Assembly (NCBI GenBank): GCA_950022655.1
Contig: OX465590.1
Span: 38,701,218-38,765,217 of the forward strand
Source of the DNA: Alentia gelatinosa
Lineage: Eukaryota > Annelida > Polychaeta > Phyllodocida > Polynoidae
Reading direction: 5' to 3'
DNA: 64,000 nt
A model generated the notes under the pieces. That model saw only the letters and a list, made by a program, of their open reading frames with translations, was not told where the DNA came from and ran no database searches. This document shows positions 10,939-30,351 of this stretch, piece by piece; position 1 is the stretch's first letter; every line of letters begins with the position of its first letter. The translations under genes and the position numbers were made by a program.

Positions 10939-11345
10939 GGTCCAGTGAGTCTGACCACCTTCTGCTCGTTAAGCCGCCTCGTCCCTGGGGTCCGCGTACT
11001 CGTTGTATCTATACCTGGAGGAAAAGTCGTCTGCTTTGCGCGTGACTAGAGCGAGACGCGCGAACTTTGCGGCGGCGTTTCCCGGGCGTTGATAACGGGA
11101 CGGGCAGCGCTCCGAGTGGTCAGTGTGTGAGTTGAGTGCGGTACGTCTCTTATCTACAGGCCTTACTTGAGGGGTCAGCTTCCCCGACGCTGGTGGCAGT
11201 GAAGTGGACGCCGGGACGCCGCGCGTTCTCTTATATGCGCGTCTCTGTTTAGGGACGCCTGCGCACGCCGCGCGGCCTAGTTCCCGCTAGGCGCGTTAGG
11301 GGGCGGCACTGTGAAATGCGGAGGCGGGCGTCAATATTCGTTCTT
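10939..11345 (-). promoter_or_regulatory. GC/CpG-rich putative promoter and 5' UTR
   Basis: This roughly 400-bp stretch is visibly GC- and CpG-rich (GCGCGTGACTAGAGCGAGACG, GGCGGCGTTTCCCGGGCGTT) compared with the AT-rich surroundings. It sits directly upstream of the minus-strand signal-peptide exon. No TATA box was identified. A pyrimidine-rich tract (11374-12090) follows on its far side. Promoter assignment is inferred from composition and position. Confidence 0.5.
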
Positions 11346-11373
11346 GTGAGTGTGCGTAGGTGGGGGTTGTTTG

Positions 11374-12090
11374 CGTTCTCTCTACCTCTCTCTCCCCCTC
11401 TCTCTAACGCACTCTCTCTCCCCTCTCACTCTCTCTGTCTATGTCTATGTCTCGCCCTCTCTGTCTCTGTCTCTCTCACTCACTCTCTCTCACTCTCTCC
11501 CTATCTCCCTATCGTCCTCTCTCTCCTCTCCCTCCCTCTCTCTGTACCTTTATCTCTTCCTTTTCTTTCTCTCCCTCTCTCTCTCCCTCTCTCTCCCTTT
11601 CTCTTTCCCTCTCTCTCCCTCTCCCTGTACCTCTATCTCTCCCTTTCTCTGTCTCTCCCTCTGTCTCTCCCTCTCTCTTTCTCTTTCCCTCTCTCTGTCA
11701 CCTTCCCTCCCTTTCTCTTTCTCTTTCCCTCTCTCTCCCCTTCTCTCTCCCTCTCCCTCTCTCCCCCTCTCTTCCTCTCCCTCTTTCCCTCTCTCTCCCC
11801 CTCCCTCTGTATCTCGTTCCCTGTTTCTCCCTCTCTCTCTCCCTCCCTCCCTCCCTCTCTCTCTCTCCCCCTGTCTCCCTCTGTCTCTCTCCCTCTCTCT
11901 CTTTCTCTCTCTCTCACTCTATCTCTCTCAGAAAGTCCCTTCCACTTCTCTCTCTCTCCCCCTCTCTCCCTCTCTCTCTCTCTCTCTATCTCTCTCAGGA
12001 AGTCCCTTCCACTTCCCTCTCTCACTCACTCTCTCTCACTCTCTCCCTATCTCCCTATCTTCCTCTCTCTCCTCTCCCTCCCTCTATGTA
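11374..12090. repeat. Long polypyrimidine (CT) low-complexity tract
   Basis: About 0.7 kb is almost only C and T on the plus strand, mostly CTCTCT, CCCTCT and TTTCTC words. A larger unit containing AGGAAGTCCCTTCCACTT / AGAAAGTCCCTTCCACTT is repeated near 11930 and 12000. The long Ser/Leu/Pro frames (plus) and Arg/Glu frames (minus) are artefacts. It lies upstream of the putative promoter of the minus-strand exon. Such tracts can form triplex DNA. Confidence 0.92.
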
Positions 12091-12895
12091 TGAAAAAATT
12101 ACAAAAACAAATTATTTTAAAATCACAAGGTGGCGCCACTGTGATTTGAAGGATATGCCTTCAACAAATCCAGTAGAGACTTTTGGAGATGTGATCAGGG
12201 TGTCCCTCGAGTGTCCCTTCATCTAATGAGACACTTGTGGTGGTGTCAGTTGCCAATGGTTGTTTTTCCTTAAAACTTTGCAAAATTTAAACTAAAACAC
12301 TTTGCAAAATTTCTCTTATAAAATGTTAATGTACATTTTGATATAAGTTCAGAAGATCTCTTTCATTAGGTAATGTTCGTTTTTCACACAACCACCATAC
12401 CCTTATACGACTAACAATTGGACACAATTATAAAATTATCAGTAATTAAAAGATCTCCCGATATTATGGTCATGAGATCACTGAGAAACCAGTTCAGTCT
12501 CAGCCCGCCAACCACATCAACGAACCTTTGATCTCTCTGAGAAAAGCGATAAAAAGATGTGTAAAACCATGGAAAAAGAGGTGAAAGTGGGAAAAAACAG
12601 TACCGTTGTGGGTCCCGCAATGTTGGTATTGGAACCCTTAATTAGTGTCCGTCTTGGGGAAAGTATTATTCATTAATCTAACCATAATCGTCTGGGATTT
12701 CCAAGCCGTCGGAGTTTATCTCATCTCCTATTTGATGAAGCTTTCATACCTCTGTAAATTTTTTCTTTCTTTTTAATAGAGCACGGCATTTATTTTCTAG
12801 TATACAGCATTTTACATCACATCTTCCCTTTATGATTATTAATCCGAATATCCCCTCTTACTGGACTATGCCTTGAAATATTGAGAAAGTTCCAT
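12091..12895. other. Non-coding stretch, no gene seen
   Basis: AT-rich with no domain-like frame. A short direct repeat of AAACTTTGCAAAATTT/AACACTTTGCAAAATTT lies near 12270-12312. Confidence 0.4.
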
Positions 12896-18949: not shown

Positions 18950-20963
18950 ATTCAGGTAAACATAACAACATTCACCCAATAGGGCGTTTTTACATGTCGT
19001 CTGTGAAAAGGATAACATTATACAGAACATTACACTGTCATAGTCAGTGAAAAGTAAGTAGAAGTTGAGGTGAGTGACACAAAACAGGACAATACTAGAT
19101 AACAGCATTACAAATAGAAGAGAGACATATAGTATGTACAATTTACCGGCCAAGGGTTCGTCAAAAATAAGTGAAATTAGATTATTTCTGCTATGTTATT
19201 GCCAAAAGTTTGTGTTCCTTAATAGGTGTGTCTTTGCGTAGATCTTATAATATGAGGTGTCGTTCGTTTTTTGGAAGTTGGGCGGTATTGTGTCCCATAT
19301 CCCAGCACCGACGTAAAGCGGGCTTTTTTTTAATCTTTCCGTTTCTGGTTTGTCAATTTTTAGTATCCGTTTATCGTAATTTCTAGTGGTTCGTGTTGGG
19401 GGTTTACAATGCGATGGGTCATCTGACCACTGTTTTATATTCATGAGTAGACATATTAATCGGCGGTATGCTAGGGGTCTTAGTTTGCATTGCTCATATA
19501 GTTCCGGAATCGAGTGGTCCCTTTTATTTTTAATTCCAAGTGCTACCCGCATGCATTGATTGAAAGACGTGTCTAACATTTTTCGGTCCATTACCCTTGC
19601 GCCAGTGTAAATGTATCCAACATAGTCATACGTGGGTAAAATGGATTGTTTCAGTATCGTTATCTGCGAATCTTTGGGAATTTGATTTCTTAACAGATAT
19701 AACTTTCCTAGATTTCATCTCGATGTGTTTATGATCTTAGTAATTTGGTCCTTGAATGTTAATTGACTGTCAATTATGAGGCCTAAATAATTGAACTTCA
19801 AGACTCGTTCAAGTGTTTGGTCATTTACCTGACTTCCTTTAATCTCAATTTTTTCCAGTTTATTACCTATCCACATTTGCTTTGTTTTCTTGGTATTCAT
19901 TTCTAGCTTATTAGCTCTCAACCATTCTGATACTTCATCTAGGTCTTTCTGTATTAGTTCCTGGGCCTTCTCTATCGTGTTGTCACTTATTACTAAGGCT
20001 AGATCATCTGCGTACATAAACGCCTCACTATTGTTAATCACGGTGAACATGTCATTTATAAAAATAATGAAAAGGGTAGGGCCGAGAACAGAGCCTTGGG
20101 GGACTCCACATTCGATACTTAATTTAGAAGATTTCATTCCGGCTAACTTTACCATTTGGGATCTATTGTATAAATAAGATTTAAGCAAGGTTATTGATAT
20201 TTCAGGTAGACCTATTTTTTTCAGCTTATGTATCAGAATTTCATGGCTTACGCTGTCGAAGGCTTTCCGCAGGTCGACAAATGTACATTGGGTCATCTGA
20301 CCACGGTTCATACTTTCATGGATCTGTGTAATCAATCTAAATATCGCCTGGCCAGTGGATCTACCGGGCATGAAACCAAATTGCTTATTATTGATAATAT
20401 CATATTCAAAAAGGTGGTTCATTATTTGTTTTTGGAGTATTTTTTCTATTATTTTTGATAACATCGGTACCACCGTTATGGGCCTCCAGTTCGTATAGTC
20501 TTCTAGGTCGCCTGTTTTGGGTATTGGTGTAACAATACCGTGCACCAATGATAGAGGGAAAATACCCGTTTCTATACTTGTATTAACGATTGTAATCATG
20601 ACCTTCGGGTTGACTAGCAGGATCTTTTTCAGGTACGTTGAGTTAAGATTGGTGATTCCAGTTGATTTATCTGTTTTTAAACCTCTGAGAATTTCAACAA
20701 TTTCATTTAAGTCTGTTGGTTTAAATATTAACTCTTCATCGATTAAATTGTCTACCATTTTTAATTCTCCCAAGTTGACCGGGCCTAGTTTCTCGAGAAT
20801 TTCTGGACCTATCTTTGTAAAGAATGTGTTTATCTCTTCCGCTTTTTTCAGATTGGTTTCAGCTCCATTCCCCTCGTCTGATGCGGTGGGGCCTCTAGGC
20901 TTACAAATATCGTTTAGGTATTTCCAAAATAGTTTTGGATTGGATTTGCTAAGATCACACAAT
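18932..20963 (-). pseudogene. 5'-truncated LINE retrotransposon, reverse transcriptase fragment
   Basis: On the minus strand the frame from 20962 encodes about 415 residues of non-LTR reverse transcriptase. It has WRPITVVPMLSKIIEKIL (about residues 159-176), GFMPGRSTGQAI (196-207), motif A FVDLRKAFD (D230), GVPQGSVLGPTLF (286-298) and the catalytic FMYADDLAL (D319, D320). A TGA at 19715-19717 interrupts the frame. The same frame then stays open to 19196 and encodes the usual C-terminal region ending SPLYVGAGIWDTIP. One nonsense change thus separates two otherwise continuous parts. The endonuclease domain is absent: a stop and unrelated DNA begin at about 20963, the normal 5' truncation of target-primed integration. 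An 18-base poly-T run (18932-18949) on the plus strand is the poly-A tail. Clade not assigned (Jockey/L2/RTE-like). No clear target duplication was found. Confidence 0.85.
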
Positions 20964-22312: not shown

Positions 22313-22495
22313 ACACCTTCAAATGTTCTGAATTAATAAGAAATTACTATTATTATATACCTATGTACGAATGTCTATGAAATACTGCCTGCTGCTAGGG
22401 GTGCAGTAATAATAATGTTCGTGCCCGCTGTGAGTGTGACTTGATAAGTCATTAAATTGTCGTTTTTTGTCGATTTAAGGCATATAATGATAAGC

Positions 22496-22950
22496 AAACG
22501 TCCTGACTGTGGACGAAACGGTTCCTTTTCTCGGGCAGTCGTCGATTTCATACTGCCTTCCGCCTATTGGCATGTTTCCATTGGCCGACGAAATGTGTGT
22601 AGATTTTTTCAGTTACCCAGAAAGTCTGTCGGTGGTACCACTGACTGCGCGTAGGTAAAGAAAAATCGGTGAGGGTTGTAGATTTCATTCAGTGACCAAG
22701 CTTTCACTGAGTGGTGGGTGGTGCCACATTGCATAATCTAAGCAGAGAAAGTCGTGGGTCATTTCACGAGCTGGGTAGTTTCCATTGACCGATTTGGGGT
22801 CAGTAGTGCCAAACGTCTGTCGGTGGTTCCTGACAGTAGATCGGTGACGGGAGATCGGCCAATGGAAACGGGCCTTATGGCGTCAGGCAGTATGAAATCG
22901 ACGACTGACCTCGAACAGGAACCGTTTCGTCCACAGTAAGGACGTTTCCT
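22496..22950. repeat. Inverted repeat interrupted by a family J element
   Basis: The outer arms 22496-22560 and 22882-22950 are inverted (GACTGTGGACGAAACGGTTC and TCGTCGATTTCATACTGCCT versus AGGCAGTATGAAATCGACGA and GAACCGTTTCGTCCACAG). Between them lies a family J unit (about 22573-22872) with ends GTTTCCATTGGCCGACGAAA and GATCGGCCAATGGAAAC and interior TCTGTCGGTGG blocks. Either J inserted in the centre of an older palindrome, or this is one two-layer element. Confidence 0.65.
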
Positions 22951-23209
22951 AATAGTAATTGCCATTCGAAATCTAAATTAGGCATTCAGAACAGGTCCGT
23001 TCATGCTGATGTGGCCCTGCTACGCCAAAGCAGATGTTCTTTTTTGTTTTTTTCCCCCATTTTGAAAATGTTGATGCCTCAAATATTTCATACAAAATAT
23101 TGTATTTTTCTTCTGGAATATTTTTTTCAAATTCTATGCTTTTTTGCTTCATATGTGCATCTACATCTCGACACCTGTAGTGACAAAACAGTCTGTACAT
23201 GTTGGACAA
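22951..23209. other. Short non-coding stretch
   Basis: No gene seen. T-rich runs near 23038 and 23095-23130. Confidence 0.4.
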
Positions 23210-23516
23210 CCCCTCTCATAAGATCTCACTCTCTCTAATTCGTATTCTGTACAAGGTTCTCACTGCGCTCTATGGGAGGAGAATTCTTAACGAACTAGGC
23301 TTAGAACTTTGAGAATCCACTGGCACACATAATTCCCGCTAGGTGGCATCATTGAGATTATAGGAAAATTTGGTTGCATTGATGTACGTCTTTAGCGCGG
23401 GAGGCAGGCCAGTGGATTCTCAAGGCTCTATGCCTAGTTCGTTAAGAATTCTTCTCCATAGAGCGTAGTGAGAGTACAGAATATGGCTTAGAGAGTGCGA
23501 GATCTTATGAGAGGGG
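23210..23516. mobile_element. Family A element with long inverted ends, copy 2
   Basis: This 307-bp element has inverted ends of about 105 bp from CCCCTCTCATAAGATCTCAC to GATCTTATGAGAGGGG. The flanks hold TTGGAC on both sides (23203-23208 and about 23520-23525), a candidate 6-bp target duplication if the element extends 2-4 bases beyond the CCCC/GGGG. Nearly colinear with 8169-8474. Confidence 0.8.
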
Positions 23517-23561
23517 TGCTTGGACTGGGCCGTAAATGATATTTTTTTACAACTGTGCAAT

Positions 23562-23763
23562 ATGGGTGACTCATGGGCTTTGCTCAGGGGTAGTCATTGC
23601 CACCTCTGGTGTCCCCCTCTACCGCGCCTCACAGGCGCCCCTCCTGCCCCCTCGCGGCTTTCACACTAACCACGCAGTCACGTGGTCGACCCCTGTCCGG
23701 ACCCCGGTCTCACTTCTACTCTACCCTCCATACAGTACACATGTACTCTACACTTTTCTCGTC
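23562..23763 (+). repeat. Split direct repeat A1 of the Ngaro-like element
   Basis: It starts ATGGGTGACTCATGGGCTTT and ends CTCTACACTTTTCTCGTC. It is repeated at 28313-28514 with two substitutions seen (CCCTGTCC versus CCCGGTCC; ACATGTACT versus ACACGTACT). It should contain the 5' regulatory region and leader. Confidence 0.9.
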
Positions 23764-23865
23764 ATTTTTGGCACGTGCGCGCAGCCTTTGTCTGTACTCC
23801 ACGAGTCACAAAGGCCCGCACCCCATCACATCATACGAGGACAGTACGGGGATAACGAGTAGAAG

Positions 23866-24990
23866 ATGCCGAAAACGAGAGCAACCCCCGAAGCCGGACC
23901 GTCAAACGCCCCTGAGGCTGAAGACGGGTCCGAAATGACCGTGAAGGAATCGACTACGCAGGGAAGCGCCGAACACGTGGCCTCGGTCTCCGAGCACGGT
24001 TCGTCCGTTAAGACGTCTCGTATCGTGGCTCTGGAGGAGAACGTAAAGTCCATCCTCACGGCTATTACAAAGATGTCACGTGAACGGTCGCCATCACGAC
24101 GGTCAGCATCACGGGCGTCGAGACCGCCAACGGAACCATCTGCGGCGGAAGACAGGACGAGGGACTCGGCCAACGACCAGGCCTCACGGCTCCCACCCCC
24201 ACGGCAGCTCCGCGACCGATACGTCTCTGAGGACTACATCCAGCGCGAGATTGAACGGGAGACCCTACGGCACGATAGGACGGCCGGTAAGCTTGCAATC
24301 GATTTACATACCAACCGTCTTATATCAAAACCATACATGTATATCGACCGTGAGGGTGTGTATACCATAAGCCAGAAGCTCGAGGCCCGGAGCACTCTCG
24401 GGCCGCTCGAGTACATCGGAGCGTTCCTCAACATGATGGAGGACCACCGGGCCGTGCGGGAGGAGGACCGCCGCGACCTGTATCGCCACCTCACGCAGGT
24501 CACCACCGATGCCCAGACACGGCCGTGGGCCGGGGTACGGAGGTGGTCCAACCATGTATTCGACCAGGTTGAAGCCGGACGCCTGTATTGGTCTGACCAC
24601 GTGAGGATACAGGACGAGCGCGTCCGGCTCGCCATGACGGCCACGACAACGAACACGAACGGCCAAGACGTCTCTAAGCCCGGGGCACGGGAGTTACCTT
24701 GCCGGGCATTTAACTCGGAGAAGGGGTGCCGCCAACGTAACGGCCACCAGGATGGGGTCATAAAGTGGGTGCATGTGTGCTCTTTTTGCGACTCTGTAGG
24801 CAGGATGTGCACGCACTCTATCCACGCGTGTAACAGGAAGCTCGCCTACGGTGTCGGTTACGAGAGCGCTGTACCCACACCGACAGCGGCCCCACGCCGA
24901 GCCCCACCGGCCGGACACGTACTGCGGCCGACTCAAGTGCTCCCACAACACCCGAGTTCAAAAAACGCACCCGCCGCGCCCCAGGAGTAG
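23866..24990 (+). CDS. ORF1, Gag-like protein of the Ngaro-like element
   Basis: 374 residues, the first long ATG frame after A1. Residues 1-115 are polar, rich in Ser/Arg/Glu and probably disordered. Residues 120-260 form the likely structured core (acidic/basic helices; two WS.H pairs at W227 and W242). A Cys/His cluster follows: C279, C288, H294, H303, C305, C308, C315, H317, H320, C322, with spacing like the zinc-binding region of Gag-like ORF1 proteins in this order. The tail is Pro/Ala-rich. Role by analogy: a nucleic-acid-binding structural protein packaging element RNA. It stops at TAG 24988-24990, inside a hairpin that follows a slippery AAAAAAC in this frame (24960-24966). A fraction of ribosomes is therefore predicted to continue into ORF2. 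Function inferred from position and Cys/His pattern, not strong sequence recognition. Confidence 0.82.
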   Translation: MPKTRATPEAGPSNAPEAEDGSEMTVKESTTQGSAEHVASVSEHGSSVKTSRIVALEENVKSILTAITKMSRERSPSRRSASRASRPPTEPSAAEDRTRDSANDQASRLPPPRQLRDRYVSEDYIQREIERETLRHDRTAGKLAIDLHTNRLISKPYMYIDREGVYTISQKLEARSTLGPLEYIGAFLNMMEDHRAVREEDRRDLYRHLTQVTTDAQTRPWAGVRRWSNHVFDQVEAGRLYWSDHVRIQDERVRLAMTATTTNTNGQDVSKPGARELPCRAFNSEKGCRQRNGHQDGVIKWVHVCSFCDSVGRMCTHSIHACNRKLAYGVGYESAVPTPTAAPRRAPPAGHVLRPTQVLPQHPSSKNAPAAPQE

Positions 24991-24998
24991 GCGCGGCG
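24960..24998 (+). promoter_or_regulatory. Candidate -1 programmed ribosomal frameshift signal between ORF1 and ORF2
   Basis: AAAAAAC at 24960-24966 is phased in ORF1 as A_AAA_AAC (codons AAA, K366; AAC, N367), the canonical efficient X_XXY_YYZ heptamer. A 5-nt spacer follows (24967-24971), then CGCCGCGCC (24972-24980), which pairs perfectly with GGCGCGGCG (24990-24998) across a 9-nt loop. The ORF1 stop lies at the loop/3'-arm edge. Slipping by -1 enters the ORF2 frame, open from 24834 through the RT domain. GGAGT in the loop (24984-24988) could pair with ACTCC at 25031-25035 to form a pseudoknot; this part is speculative. Confidence 0.8.
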
Positions 24999-27725
24999 CG
25001 AGACACCACCCCTGCACTCGGTACGCATGCACTCCCGGGCAGGGGGAAGACCGACACCAGCGAGTGCCACACCTATGATGTAACACCTCCCGGGCACGTG
25101 ACAACAACACCGCGTGTCAAACACGTGGAGCGTGCAAGCGATGACAGCGACCCCGGGGAATACACTCTCACCGCTGACAGCTATAAGGGAGTGGAGGAGC
25201 AATTGCCTCGGCAATTACCCCGGGGAGAAATTGATATGGTGACCACACCCGACTTCGCCGCACTTAGGGAGGTGTGTGAGACCGGGGTGCCGGTCCCCGG
25301 GGTACAGACCGACCCGGCCGCATTCATCGGACACAGGCGGGCCCTCTGGCCCCAGTTCGCCGGGCCCGGGCCGCCGGGACACGCCTACATATACGGCGAG
25401 GTGAGGGAAACGGGACTGCCCAACGCTTTGGGCGCACGCATTGAGCTTCCCACGGACCTGAACATTCCGGCGTGGGTCCGGTACCTCTCCGGAATCCCCG
25501 GAAAACAAGAACTGCTCGACTTCATCCGGTTCGGGTTTCCCCTCGGGTACCTCGGGCCCGTCAGCGATACACAGGAGGCTCTCAACCACCCCAGTGCCAC
25601 GGGATTCCCGGAACAAGTCGACAAGTTCATAAGTAAAGAGCATGCACACAGCCACCTTATAGGACCCTTCAACGAGGCACCGTTTTCTCCGTGGTGTCAC
25701 GTGTCGCCGTTGATGACACGCGAGAAGCGGGGGGGCATTGAGCGTCGTGTCATTACCGACATGACGTATCCCAAGGAGAGCAGTGTCAATGCTTACATTA
25801 TAAAGAACTCTGTCTTCGGTCAGGAGCGGGAACACGGCCTGCTGACCGTCGACGGCTTCGTCGGCCGCCTGGTGGCCTCGGGGCCCGGTAGTTACATGAG
25901 CACCATAGACATTGCCAGAGCGTACAAGAACTTTCGGTGTGATCCGCTGGATTGGCCGTTGCTCTGTTTCGCGTGGAGGGACGGGTACTACTGTGACACG
26001 GCGATGCCGTTTGGTGCCCGTGCCTCCTCGTATCATATGCAGTGCGTGGCGGATACCATTGTCCAGATGCTGGGACAAAAGGGTGTGGACGCCGCCATGT
26101 ACCTGGACGATTTGATAATCCTCTCTCCCAACCGAGGAAAAGCAGCATCGGACTTCGCCATAGCGCGGGGGCTGTTCCGGGAATTGGGCCTCCCCGAGGC
26201 CACAGACAAGGCACAGCCCCCGGCACAGGTGGTCACTTGGCTCGGGATCATCATAAATGCCCCCGAGATGTCCATCACCATTCCCGAGGACAAGCTGCAG
26301 GACGTACGCGAACACGTTAGAACGGTCGCCAGGAAGCGGTCTCTCACCAAACGCCAACTGCAGTCGGTCCTCGGCAAGATACTTCACGTCTCTAAATGCA
26401 TACGGCCGGCACGGCCGTTCGTGAGCAAACTGTTGGAGGCACTGAGGGCCATGTCCGGGTACTACCTTAACATCAACGCGGATATGAGGCAAGACCTGGA
26501 CTGGTTCCTACGGTTCGCCGACGGCTGGAACGGCCACGCCCTCATCCCTCGAGGCTCACCCACGAAGTGTATCATCGTGGATGCGTGCCTCTCAGGAATC
26601 GGCGGGACGGACGGCACGTATTTCTACGCAGGACGGGTGTGCCCGACCGTTGACCCCGTGACATGCATCTCGGAGCTCGAGGCACTTAACACGGTGTACG
26701 CCATGAACACGTTCCTCACAGATCGCGACCGTGGTACACGTGTGGAGGTGTTCTGTGACAACCTGGGCACCGTCCAGGCACTCACCAGTGGGAGGGCGCG
26801 TAATTCGGTACTGGCCGAATGTGCCCGCCAGGCCTGGATGGTGCAGGCCAAGTTGCAGGTCGAACTCATCTACACCCACGTGCCTGGGGTCTTAAATACT
26901 GTAGCCGATGCCCTGAGCAGGGCACATCTGACCTCGAGGGATTATAATACTGCTGCCATGTTCATCGCATACCATTCCCTTACAGAGGTCATACCGTGTA
27001 CACATGCCTCGTTTATACCAGTCTTGCGTCTTCCATGCAGATCCGGCTCTACTCTCACTCCAGACGAGGGCATCTGCGCGGCAATCAGAGGCACGTGCCC
27101 GCGGAACGGTCGCCAACCAGAGGAGCGCCGTCGCCACGTACCTCGCGTTTTGCCGACGGATGCGGGCCGATCCACAGACACCTACAGTCAGCTTCACCAC
27201 AGCGTACCTCGAATACGTCGCGGAACACGCCCCCTCGCCGGCAACGGTCGCCAACCAACTCTCCCATGTGCGGTCGCACCTGCGACTGACGGGGGGCGAC
27301 GTCGCGCCAACCGAGGACTTCCGGGTGAAGCGGGCACTGGAGGCCATGAAACGCAACAAGGACTATCGCCCAAACGTCAAGCCTCCGGTGCCGATGGCGG
27401 TCCTCCAGGCCACCCTCGGGGCCCTAACGGACTCCCCCATGCACATAGTTCTGCGGGCAGCCGTCCTGATTATCTTCTACGCGGCCCTGCGGCAGAGCGA
27501 GGTCGCGCCCCCGACGGCGGCAGCACACGATCCAGCGCGACACCTGTCACGCCGAGACGTGGTGGTCACGCCCACCAGCGTGACAGTCCGCGTCAAGGCG
27601 GCAAAGAACCTCCAACTGGCCGGGGAGGAGAAAACGGCAACACTCCAGGCGTCGCCGACCCCCGCCACATGCCCGCTGGTAGCTATACGACGGATGCTGG
27701 CGGCCGCCCCCACGGCCACCCCTGA
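24966..27725 (+). CDS. ORF2, reverse transcriptase-RNase H of the Ngaro-like element
   Basis: The frame is open from 24834. Its first ATG is at 25236, so the start given here is the position entered after -1 slippage at 24960-24966; product about 1,286 residues as an ORF1 fusion. Numbering from the GTG at 25098: RT motif A STIDIARAYKNF (D271), motif B TAMPFGARASSYHMQ (301-315), motif C MYLDDLIIL (D337, D338), typical of DIRS-order RTs. RNase H follows with VDACLSG (D495), SELEALN (E526, E528), FCDNLG (D554) and TVADALSRAH (D604). It should copy element RNA to DNA and degrade the RNA strand. After about residue 620 the sequence becomes Arg/Gly/Pro-rich and shares its DNA with ORF3 for 722 nt, so this tail is probably not a conserved domain. 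The 425-codon antisense frame (25215-26492) is a mirror of GC-rich codons. Confidence 0.9.
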   Translation, partial: RTRRAPGVGAARDTTPALGTHALPGRGKTDTSECHTYDVTPPGHVTTTPRVKHVERASDDSDPGEYTLTADSYKGVEEQLPRQLPRGEIDMVTTPDFAALREVCETGVPVPGVQTDPAAFIGHRRALWPQFAGPGPPGHAYIYGEVRETGLPNALGARIELPTDLNIPAWVRYLSGIPGKQELLDFIRFGFPLGYLGPVSDTQEALNHPSATGFPEQVDKFISKEHAHSHLIGPFNEAPFSPWCHVSPLMTREKRGGIERRVITDMTYPKESSVNAYIIKNSVFGQEREHGLLTVDGFVGRLVASGPGSYMSTIDIARAYKNFRCDPLDWPLLCFAWRDGYYCDTAMPFGARASSYHMQCVADTIVQMLGQKGVDAAMYLDDLIILSPNRGKAASDFAIARGLFRELGLPEATDKAQPPAQVVTWLGIIINAPEMSITIPEDKLQDVREHVRTVARKRSLTKRQLQSVLGKILHVSKCIRPARPFVSKLLEALRAMSGYYLNINADMRQDLDWFLRFADGWNGHALIPRGSPTKCIIVDACLSGIGGTDGTYFYAGRVCPTVDPVTCISELEALNTVYAMNTFLTDRDRGTRVEVFCDNLGTVQALTSGRARNSVLAECARQAWMVQAKLQVELIYTHVPGVLNTVADALSRAHLTSRDYNTAAMFIAYHSLTEVIPCTHASFIPVLRLPCRSGSTLTPDEGICAAIRGTCPRNGRQPEERRRHVPRVLPTDAGRSTDTYSQLHHSVPRIRRGTRPLAGNGRQPTLPCAVAPATDGGRRRANRGLPGEAGTGGHETQQGLSPKRQASGADGGPPGHPRGPNGLPHAHSSAGSRPDYLLRGPAAERGRAPDGGSTRSSATPVTPRRGGHAHQRDSPRQGGKEPPTGRGGENGNTPGVADPRHMPAGSYTTDAGGRPHGHP

Positions 27726-28008
27726 GGACCCGTTCCTCATGCTCGAGGACCGAACCACGGTAACCACACGTATGCTTACCAAGGCATGGAAGCAGCTGCT
27801 AGTGGCCGCGCGACAGGACTCGAACTACACACTGCACAGCCTTCGCAAGGCAGCGGCAACACAGGCATTCCAGGCCGGGATGCCTGAAATCTCCATACAA
27901 CAATATGGAGGGTGGAAATCAAATGCCCACCGCTCTTATATCAAAGACGACAAGGAGAAAGCTGTGAACCTCGCCCTCCTCAAGTCCCTAAACCAAAAGG
28001 ACTCTTAA
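27004..28008 (+). CDS. ORF3, tyrosine recombinase of the Ngaro-like element
   Basis: 334 residues from ATG 27004. The N-terminal half (about 30-120) resembles the core-binding domain, with VANQRSAVATYLAFCRRM and TVANQLSHVRSHLRL. The catalytic domain holds R163 in ALRQSEV, a lysine candidate in RVKAAKNLQ (K198 or K201), H278 and R281 in HSLRKAAAT, W304 in YGGWKSNAH, and the nucleophile Y312 in RSYI. The R-K-HxxR-H/W-Y set is therefore intact. The enzyme should integrate a circular DNA copy by site-specific-like recombination rather than by DDE integrase. The frame is +1 relative to ORF2, overlaps it by 722 nt, and is open only from 26932, just after the end of RNase H; translation could use ATG 27004 internally or a second recoding event. 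It ends 46 nt before B1. Confidence 0.92.
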   Translation: MPRLYQSCVFHADPALLSLQTRASARQSEARARGTVANQRSAVATYLAFCRRMRADPQTPTVSFTTAYLEYVAEHAPSPATVANQLSHVRSHLRLTGGDVAPTEDFRVKRALEAMKRNKDYRPNVKPPVPMAVLQATLGALTDSPMHIVLRAAVLIIFYAALRQSEVAPPTAAAHDPARHLSRRDVVVTPTSVTVRVKAAKNLQLAGEEKTATLQASPTPATCPLVAIRRMLAAAPTATPEDPFLMLEDRTTVTTRMLTKAWKQLLVAARQDSNYTLHSLRKAAATQAFQAGMPEISIQQYGGWKSNAHRSYIKDDKEKAVNLALLKSLNQKDS

Positions 28009-28054
28009 ATTCTTCCCCCCCCCCTCTCCTTTTCATTTATTGGCTTCTTGGCCT

Positions 28055-28314
28055 TTTATTATCATACAATTCTCATTGTATTACCCATAATACAATCCAA
28101 CATTGTATTTCTATCTTATAATTTTATCATAATTGACTTTTATTCCAATGTCAATTATTCCATGTATTATTACTTACCTCTTATTATCATTACATCTAAT
28201 ATGTCGTCCAGTAAGGTCGACATAAAATTTTATCTACTACTTTACTGCATAAAATTCAATAAAATTTTATTTTCCCAGCTACTGCTTTCTACTTTCATCC
28301 AGGGGTAGGGTAAT
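28055..28314 (+). repeat. Split direct repeat B1 of the Ngaro-like element
   Basis: 260 bp from TTTATTATCATACAATTCTC to CCAGGGGTAGGGTAAT, repeated with no difference seen by eye at 28561-28820. AT-rich 3' non-coding region that passes straight into A2. Confidence 0.9.
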
Positions 28315-28514
28315 GGGTGACTCATGGGCTTTGCTCAGGGGTAGTCATTGCCACCTCTGGTGTCCCCCTCTACCGCGCCTCACAGGCGCCCCTCCTGCCC
28401 CCTCGCGGCTTTCACACTAACCACGCAGTCACGTGGTCGACCCCGGTCCGGACCCCGGTCTCACTTCTACTCTACCCTCCATACAGTACACACGTACTCT
28501 ACACTTTTCTCGTC
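28313..28514 (+). repeat. Split direct repeat A2 of the Ngaro-like element
   Basis: 202-bp copy of A1 placed directly after B1. The B1/A2 junction reproduces the join expected in a circular intermediate. Its right end is followed by a 46-nt linker (28515-28560). Confidence 0.9.
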
Positions 28515-28560
28515 CCACCCACCCACACCTTCTCTCTTTCTCAACTACTCACGTAGGGCC

Positions 28561-28820
28561 TTTATTATCATACAATTCTCATTGTATTACCCATAATACA
28601 ATCCAACATTGTATTTCTATCTTATAATTTTATCATAATTGACTTTTATTCCAATGTCAATTATTCCATGTATTATTACTTACCTCTTATTATCATTACA
28701 TCTAATATGTCGTCCAGTAAGGTCGACATAAAATTTTATCTACTACTTTACTGCATAAAATTCAATAAAATTTTATTTTCCCAGCTACTGCTTTCTACTT
28801 TCATCCAGGGGTAGGGTAAT
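28561..28820 (+). repeat. Split direct repeat B2 of the Ngaro-like element
   Basis: 260-bp copy of B1 ending GGGGTAGGGTAAT, followed by the genomic flank GATATACGTATAATACACTG. Marks the 3' end of the element. Confidence 0.9.
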
Positions 28821-29640
28821 GATATACGTATAATACACTGAGCATAGGCTAAGACTGAGGTGCACAGGTGTGCAATGAATGGCAAGATTACATATATGAC
28901 AAGTGTGACATGACAAGAGGAGGAAAGATCTTCCCTAGGGAATAGGGAATATGTGGTCCCTGCTTTCCCCTTAAGGTGTAGTATTTGGGAGAAAAAAAGA
29001 TATAACAAGGCAGATTGTAAAAAATGATTAACAAGGCAGCTTTCGTCCATTATTTCACTTCTTATGTCACATCAGGGGAGATCCAGTCACATACGAGCAG
29101 TTTTGAAGTCATCCCTGTAAAAACAAAAAGTCTCTCTGAAAAACACGACTTCACAAGAACGTAAAAGTAACATGACGTTAGGTTTTCATCCAAAGCTGGT
29201 TTTTACCAGGAGGTACCTGGTTTCTTTTGATGATAGCATCAAAATGAAGGAGGGGATTTATTTGTTTGGATTGTAAGACACTGCAATACAAGAATCACGT
29301 GTCCCTTATTATTTATGAATACTATTTAATTGTCAAATACTCATTTATGTGATTTTTTTTAATTCATTAGATCTGGTGTAGTGCTATTGAATCATCGCAA
29401 TTAAGTCTCTAGAGACTCAGGTATTATCTCCCTTTTATTGTGATATCTAGCTGAAAATATCTACTGCTATCGTAAATGCCAGCTGCGACTGGCGAAGGGT
29501 ATATTGTTATTCTGCAAAGATACGTTGTACCAATGAGTTGTATGTGATATATTGTAATTGAATGTATCTTTCGATGTATTCAATTTTGTTGGACTGTCCC
29601 GAACATCAGACCAGCCTGGGGGTAGCATGAATAACGAAAC
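28821..29640. other. Non-coding stretch, no gene seen
   Basis: AT-rich DNA to the right of the retrotransposon. The minus 100-codon frame at 28748-29050 starts in unique flank and runs into B2 and has no domain. Confidence 0.4.
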
Positions 29641-29876
29641 TTAAAAAAAGATTTTAAAAAACTAAATAAATGACCCTCTTTTCTATACATTTAATACAAA
29701 GTGTCCATGGTAAACCTATAGGAACTCTGTATGGAAATACCCGGGGCATACGGATATATGCTGTGTGCACCGGACCGCAAAATCTGGCGTATTGGGGAAA
29801 TGGTGCGTATGAAAAAGAATACATAGCTAAAGTAAATTAACATCGGTACGCCACTTGTCAGTTAAAGGTGGATAGT
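29641..29876. repeat. Degenerate dispersed repeat related to 60530-60620
   Basis: CTGTATGGAAATACCCGGGGC and GCATACGGATATATGCTGTG correspond, inverted, to GCATACAACATATCCG and GGGTATATCCATACACACTG near 60550-60590. Boundaries uncertain. Confidence 0.35.
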
Positions 29877-30024
29877 ATACAATATAGACTGGTTTCAGAT
29901 AAAAGCGGATGTATGCTCCTCGGAGTTGACTTTGCGCATGATCCTCGCATGCGCTCGGATATTACTACGCGTCAACTCCTCGGAGCATATGGGTGCTTGT
30001 ATCTGAAACCAGTCTATATTGTAT
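29877..30024. repeat. 148-bp palindrome
   Basis: The outer arms ATACAATATAGACTGGTTTC and GAAACCAGTCTATATTGTAT are perfect. The inner arms TATGCTCCTCGGAGTTGAC and GTCAACTCCTCGGAGCATA are also perfect. The centre contains CATGATCCTCGCATGCGCTC and TATTACTACGC. The near-perfect arms suggest youth. A plus frame through it is incidental. Confidence 0.8.
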
Positions 30025-30351
30025 ATGTATCTGAAAAACTCCATGTAATATCAAGTATTATGAAAACAAATTGTGCGACTATGTGCGACAGTGCGAAAAT
30101 ATTAAAAGATTTGTTTATATTTTCACATGCCGGTCGCATGGCCCTGCGAATTCAGATGAGCCATGTAACTCTCAATAGACCATCTGATCCAATGAAGCGA
30201 ATTTTTATGTGACCCTGACCTCCCTTCGAAAGTGAGCGATCGCTAATTCGCAAGAAATTCTCCTCATTGGATTTGCCGCTTTTCGTTGTATGTCGAGCAA
30301 CCTTTCAGAGCTCTGAAGTGATTCAGTGTCTCAGAGGCACGAAGCTGTAGA

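Follow-up and report, generated by a model that had tools for sequence, protein, structure and literature searches.

At the −1 frameshift sites by which retroviruses and animal LTR elements express Gag-Pol (or Gag-Pro), a heptamer of the form X_XXY_YYZ lies in the phase of Gag and is followed by a short spacer and a downstream structure, with pol in the −1 frame. According to PMC5009743, 28 of 51 surveyed animal elements have pol in the −1 frame, many of them with such heptamers; for mammalian ribosomes, A_AAA_AAC ranks with the heptamers most prone to shifting; and spacers are 5–9 nt in many studies and 6–9 nt for the majority of stimulators. Ngaro elements are organized as A1 – ORFs – B1 A2 B2 and encode a Gag-like protein, a reverse transcriptase (RT), and a tyrosine recombinase (YR). 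Three sources bear on reading frames: overlapping frames are mentioned for Ngaro elements (PMC9210276), these elements are stated to be usually without ORF overlaps (PMC3266345), and the YR ORF may lie in a shifted frame with respect to RT (PMC3783388). A methyltransferase domain marks DIRS1-like elements (PMC3266345). In the literature searched, of which the coverage is incomplete and the sources were available in part (an earlier mention is possible), we found no description of a Gag-Pol slippery site in Ngaro or DIRS elements and nothing on the mechanism by which tyrosine-recombinase retrotransposons balance Gag against reverse transcriptase.

Here, we present an analysis of the junction between the first two reading frames of an Ngaro-type element in the window, i.e., the whole 64,000-nucleotide stretch of Alentia gelatinosa DNA that was analyzed. 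This junction shares with the retroviral and LTR sites the heptamer in the phase of Gag, the short spacer, the downstream structure, and the −1 position of the following frame; however, the element itself is not an LTR element, since it encodes a tyrosine recombinase and is bounded by split direct repeats. Conversely, it shares the repeat layout and the three kinds of coding region with Ngaro elements and differs from them in the candidate −1 frameshift cassette at the ORF1/ORF2 junction. An initial annotation of this DNA had called such a Gag-Pol strategy familiar from retroviruses and some LTR elements; −1 frameshifting is common in LTR elements (PMC5009743). We are probably dealing with a known mechanism in a class of elements for which we found no earlier report, a novelty that is limited to the literature searched.

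The element and its surroundings

The features of the element are listed in Table 1. The repeat layout A1 ... B1 A2 B2 is present, with 2 differences in 202 positions and 2 in 266 between the respective copies. Classed by this layout and by its domain content, the element is apparently an intact Ngaro-type element with all three ORFs open, and it is probably young, judging by the near-identical repeats. The split direct repeats and the RVT_1 and Phage_integrase matches also agree with the initial annotation, which had taken the element for a tyrosine-recombinase retrotransposon. As expected from the comparison with Ngaro elements, ORF1 to ORF3 gave no methyltransferase Pfam match at an E value of 1 and no DDE integrase match. 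A search of the window for a further copy returned only the element and its own repeats.

Table 1. Coordinates, in the window, of the element, its reading frames, and the parts of the ORF1/ORF2 junction
Feature	Position	Strand	Basis
Whole element	23562–28821	+	Split direct repeats and three open ORFs
Split direct repeat A1 (5′ end of element)	23562–23763	+	200/202 identical to 28313–28514
ORF1, Gag-like by position, 374 aa	ATG 23866, TAG 24988–24990	+	38% identity to P0121 over 82%
ORF2 (−1) frame already open inside ORF1, upstream of heptamer	24834–24959	+	ORF list
Candidate slippery heptamer A_AAA_AAC	24960–24966	+	ORF1 phase; base-by-base check
Spacer, 5 nt	24967–24971	+	Base-by-base check
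Perfect 9-bp all-GC stem	24972–24980 pairs with 24990–24998	+	Base-by-base check, fold
ORF2 from heptamer: linker, then RT/RNase H	24960–27725	+	RVT_1, E 5e-11
ORF3, tyrosine recombinase, 334 aa	27004–28008	+	Phage_integrase, E 1.1e-8
Split direct repeat B1	28050–28315	+	264/266 identical to 28556–28821
Split direct repeat A2 (3-bp overlap with B1)	28313–28514	+	Repeat comparison
Split direct repeat B2 (3′ end of element)	28556–28821	+	Repeat comparison

The ORF1 protein matched no Pfam family at an E value of 0.01 and no PDB sequence at an E value of 1. With a capsid fold in mind, an AlphaFold2 model of it (mean pLDDT of 56.8) was compared by Foldseek and gave no match at an E value of 0.001, an uninformative result. 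Its C-terminus contains a zinc-finger-like Cys/His cluster with Cys/His columns that are invariant among five aligned sequences. ORF2 has its YLDD motif at 26100; RNase H was matched weakly (RVT_3, E value of 0.098, under the cut-off), motifs that we take to be those of RNase H are located in ORF2, and the protein has no PDB sequence match at an E value of 0.001. In ORF3, we located R (in LRQSE), HSLR, and Y (in SYI), which we assume to be the recombinase residues. Compared with ORF2, ORF3 is shifted to the +1 frame, and it starts at an ATG of its own (27004); therefore, the −1 site does not serve ORF3. A second heptamer for the passage from ORF2 to ORF3 was considered and rejected: the sole XXXYYYZ sequence in 26901–27730 is CCCAAAC at 27369, which is out of phase and inside the YR gene. 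The ORF2 frame stays open for 722 nt into ORF3 (27004–27725), far past RT/RNase H. On the minus strand, antisense to RT, a 430-aa frame is open from 25215 to 26507 with no Pfam match at an E value of 0.01; it is perhaps a by-product of GC-rich codons.

Other features occur elsewhere in the window. Nested inverted repeats (23209–23252 with 23474–23517, and 23275–23324 with 23408–23457) look like a foldback element spanning 23209–23517 and ending 44 bp before the Ngaro element. Two further inverted-repeat pairs, at 22490–22953 (99-nt arms) and 29876–30025 (55-nt arms), are both 85% complementary and are possible foldback transposons. The RT of another retroelement lies on the minus strand at 19196–20962, with an RVT_1 match (E value of 1.1e-42) in 19715–20962; beyond an in-frame stop, it is followed by another open stretch that matched no Pfam family. 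At 11253–12226, long overlapping frames are open in CT-rich simple sequence and do not have the appearance of genes.

The junction of ORF1 and ORF2

ORF2 follows ORF1 in the −1 frame. The ORF1 codons at 24958–24966 are TCA AAA AAC, which places X_XXY_YYZ in the ORF1 phase. Read in this phase, the heptamer gives (S)KN; read in the −1 frame, it gives KK(R). The structure begins 5 nt past the heptamer, at the short end of the range of spacers given in PMC5009743. The 5′ arm of the stem reads CGCCGCGCC and the 3′ arm GGCGCGGCG; they enclose a 9-nt loop (24981–24989), and the TAG of ORF1 straddles the boundary between loop and 3′ arm, with two bases at the end of the loop and one at the start of the arm. 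A pseudoknot or kissing loop between 24984–24988 and 25031–25035 is not claimed, since 1,446 of 5,000 shuffles equal this pairing. The open stretch of the −1 frame extends from 24834 to 27725, with the first ATG at 25236.

To define heptamers, we used XXXYYYZ with Y being A or T and Z not being G. Three such sequences occur in 23863–27000, and the only one in the overlap of ORF1 and ORF2 is A_AAA_AAC at 24960. The window as a whole contains 548 (278 on the plus strand and 270 on the minus strand), and only the heptamer at 24960 has, 4–10 nt downstream, a perfectly paired stem that is 8 bp or longer, includes 6 or more G/C, and closes a loop of 3–15 nt. When 24834–25050 was shuffled with preservation of dinucleotides, an in-phase heptamer arose in 387 of 20,000 sequences and heptamer plus stem in none; after shuffling of the ORF1 codons of the overlap, 1,187 of 20,000 sequences had a heptamer and one had both the heptamer and the stem. 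For its composition, the fold of the hairpin is only moderately unusual, with z-scores of −2.1 (35 nt), −1.8 (80 nt), and −1.4 (100 nt). What is improbable is the coincidence of the parts and not the stem by itself. The initial annotation had described the heptamer, its ORF1 phase, the 5-nt spacer, and the 9-bp GC stem, had placed ORF2 in the −1 frame without an ATG before 25236, and had judged the chance of heptamer, phase, spacing, and stem coinciding to be low; the base-by-base check and the counts above uphold this description. We regard a programmed −1 ribosomal frameshift, making a minor Gag-Pol fusion from Gag's own RNA, as quite likely to be the best explanation of the junction.

Relatives of the ORF1 and ORF2 proteins

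Because the protein searches scored only the candidates with the most shared words, relatives may be missed. Searches with ORF1 gave one full-length free-standing relative, P0121, and the search with the ORF1 alignment returned P0121 and two fragments, P0122 and P0123, of which the C-terminal ends carry no information on this point. The C-terminus of P0121 reads ...QASKNAM vs ...PSSKNAPAAPQE in the window, and SKNA is common to both. KN occurs once in each ORF1, with its K 9th from the end in the window and 4th in P0121, and 44 and 54 residues, respectively, past the last zinc-finger Cys. The match of SKNA comes from the multiple alignment, in which the two motifs line up, and from their position; the pairwise local alignment with P0121 ends before the C-terminus. 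Under the genetic code, the one sequence that can encode SKNA and, one frame back, KKR is A AAA AAC GC. From this coding constraint, P0121 probably carries the same heptamer, a conclusion drawn from its protein.

Among the candidates scored in the ORF2 search, at least 145 were relatives, and 120 of the 145 were examined. They bear on a rival reading in which translation of ORF2 begins at the ATG at 25236, whether through reinitiation, leaky scanning, an internal entry site, or a separate RNA, and the cassette is a coincidence. This ATG sits just ahead of the conserved RT domain (MVTTPDFAALREVC). Upstream of the ATG, the linker is without detectable conservation: in the three frames, the segment between the heptamer and RT had no detectable similarity to ORF2-frame segments of 66 relatives (best score of 20.0 bits; 200 shuffles reach 25.4; the segments, of at least 50 aa, were taken from P0001–P0108, excluding P0109–P0120). 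Moreover, all 75 relatives with at least 20 aa ahead of the RT-domain anchor carry, ahead of RT and in frame with ORF2, a start Met predicted by the database, so the missing ATG of the window is not general, and a start at an ATG is possible in relatives. However, Met is found in the 10 residues before the anchor in just 3 of these 75 relatives, and Met25236 is thus not a conserved start; within 40 residues before the anchor, 17 of 69 relatives have a Met. A ribosome would also meet 15 ATGs, counting all frames, between the start of ORF1 and 25236; four of these, in a frame other than that of ORF2, lie past the ORF1 stop (25027, 25075, 25078, and 25141). These ATGs, together with the rarity of Met near the anchor, make a start at 25236 unlikely; in addition, such a start leaves both the cassette and the matching ORF1 end of P0121 unexplained. 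Separately, we observed that a motif like K(Q/H)x(1-2)DVI(S/T) recurs in the Gag-RT linker of P0002, P0004, P0015, P0017, P0025, and P0046 and is absent from the window.

In three of the 120 relatives examined (P0077, P0086, and P0090), the Gag zinc finger and RT are in one frame. KKR is what AAA AAA CGN encodes when read one frame back, and in all three relatives with the zinc-finger pattern in the RT frame, it lies past the last zinc-finger Cys, by 79, 50, and 46 residues, respectively; shuffled 90-residue tails of these proteins contain KKR in 255, 553, and 1,123 of 20,000 cases. P0009 and P0015 have KKR 43 and 49 residues after the predicted start, i.e., with the predicted Met upstream of KKR, and the Gag zinc finger is not in frame. 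The frequency of KKR across the 120 relatives is higher ahead of the RT anchor (7 in 9,354 residues) than beyond it (8 in 86,997). Of the 15 relatives in which the anchor is preceded by 130 aa or more, 10 lack KKR. P0077, P0086, and P0090 resemble the window element in having the Gag zinc finger, KKR, and RT; unlike the window element, they have no change of frame between Gag and RT, and because the two are fused, they need no shift there.

The fused relatives, with KKR at a similar place, are what one would expect if Gag-Pol had once been one frame here too and the window copy had suffered a one-base upstream indel, KKR being kept as a basic motif, e.g., a nuclear localization signal, whose codons AAA AAA CGC spell the heptamer by chance. 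PKKRV in P0086 and P0090 resembles what we take to be a classical basic localization signal. In contrast, the ORF1 of P0121 likewise ends just past SKNA, the remainder of the window copy is open with repeats that are about 99% identical, and the stem and its spacing would be unexplained; we consider this history very unlikely. Joining of ORF1 and ORF2 by splicing, or by slippage of RNA polymerase or reverse transcriptase, rather than by the ribosome, would make use of the run of six A, but such a run is short for transcriptional slippage and neither process needs a downstream stem at ribosomal spacing, making this explanation the least credible and highly improbable.

The DNA of relatives was sought in addition to their proteins: none was confirmed in IMG/VR (scans with a single ORF2, an ORF2 alignment, and an ORF1 alignment) or in GTDB genomes (two scans), and a tblastn comparison of the RT with phage records gave no match. 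The evidence for a conserved site consists of protein-level traces, and at that level the site is not universal in the group. The traces suggest that the junction site is common to other elements of the group, though not all of them need a frameshift. Accordingly, the −1 frameshift strategy proposed in the initial annotation gains from SKNA in P0121 and from KKR in some relatives, but it is not fixed in the group, in which 3 of 120 are fused.

A model for Gag-Pol expression and its implications

In the programmed −1 frameshift that we favor, most ribosomes would read ORF1 to the TAG at 24988. The stem would reach the mRNA entrance when AAA and AAC occupy the P and A sites, and some ribosomes, stalled by the GC stem 5 nt on, would slip one base back on A_AAA_AAC. 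These ribosomes would re-pair on AAA AAA and proceed with CGC into ORF2, i.e., into RT/RNase H; the predicted junction after tandem slippage is ...PSSKN-RTRRAPGV.... That slippage occurs, its frequency, and its stimulation by the stem are all three features that we infer from the nucleotide sequence. The ORF3 recombinase, in another frame, would have to be expressed by different means.

We speculate that a −1 frameshift at A_AAA_AAC might be a long-standing Gag-Pol control in one clade of Ngaro elements that arose outside or before LTR elements, although we hold this broader scenario to be doubtful. According to this scenario, some members would later have fused the frames, keeping the KKR codons either as a leftover from the slippery site or for slipping out of the fused frame to make Gag alone.

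A frameshift site of this kind in an intact element, if real, would connect tyrosine-recombinase retrotransposons with the way in which retroviruses and LTR elements organize Gag-Pol expression. Moreover, the two-frame and the fused relatives would provide a natural comparison for the gain and loss of Gag-Pol control.
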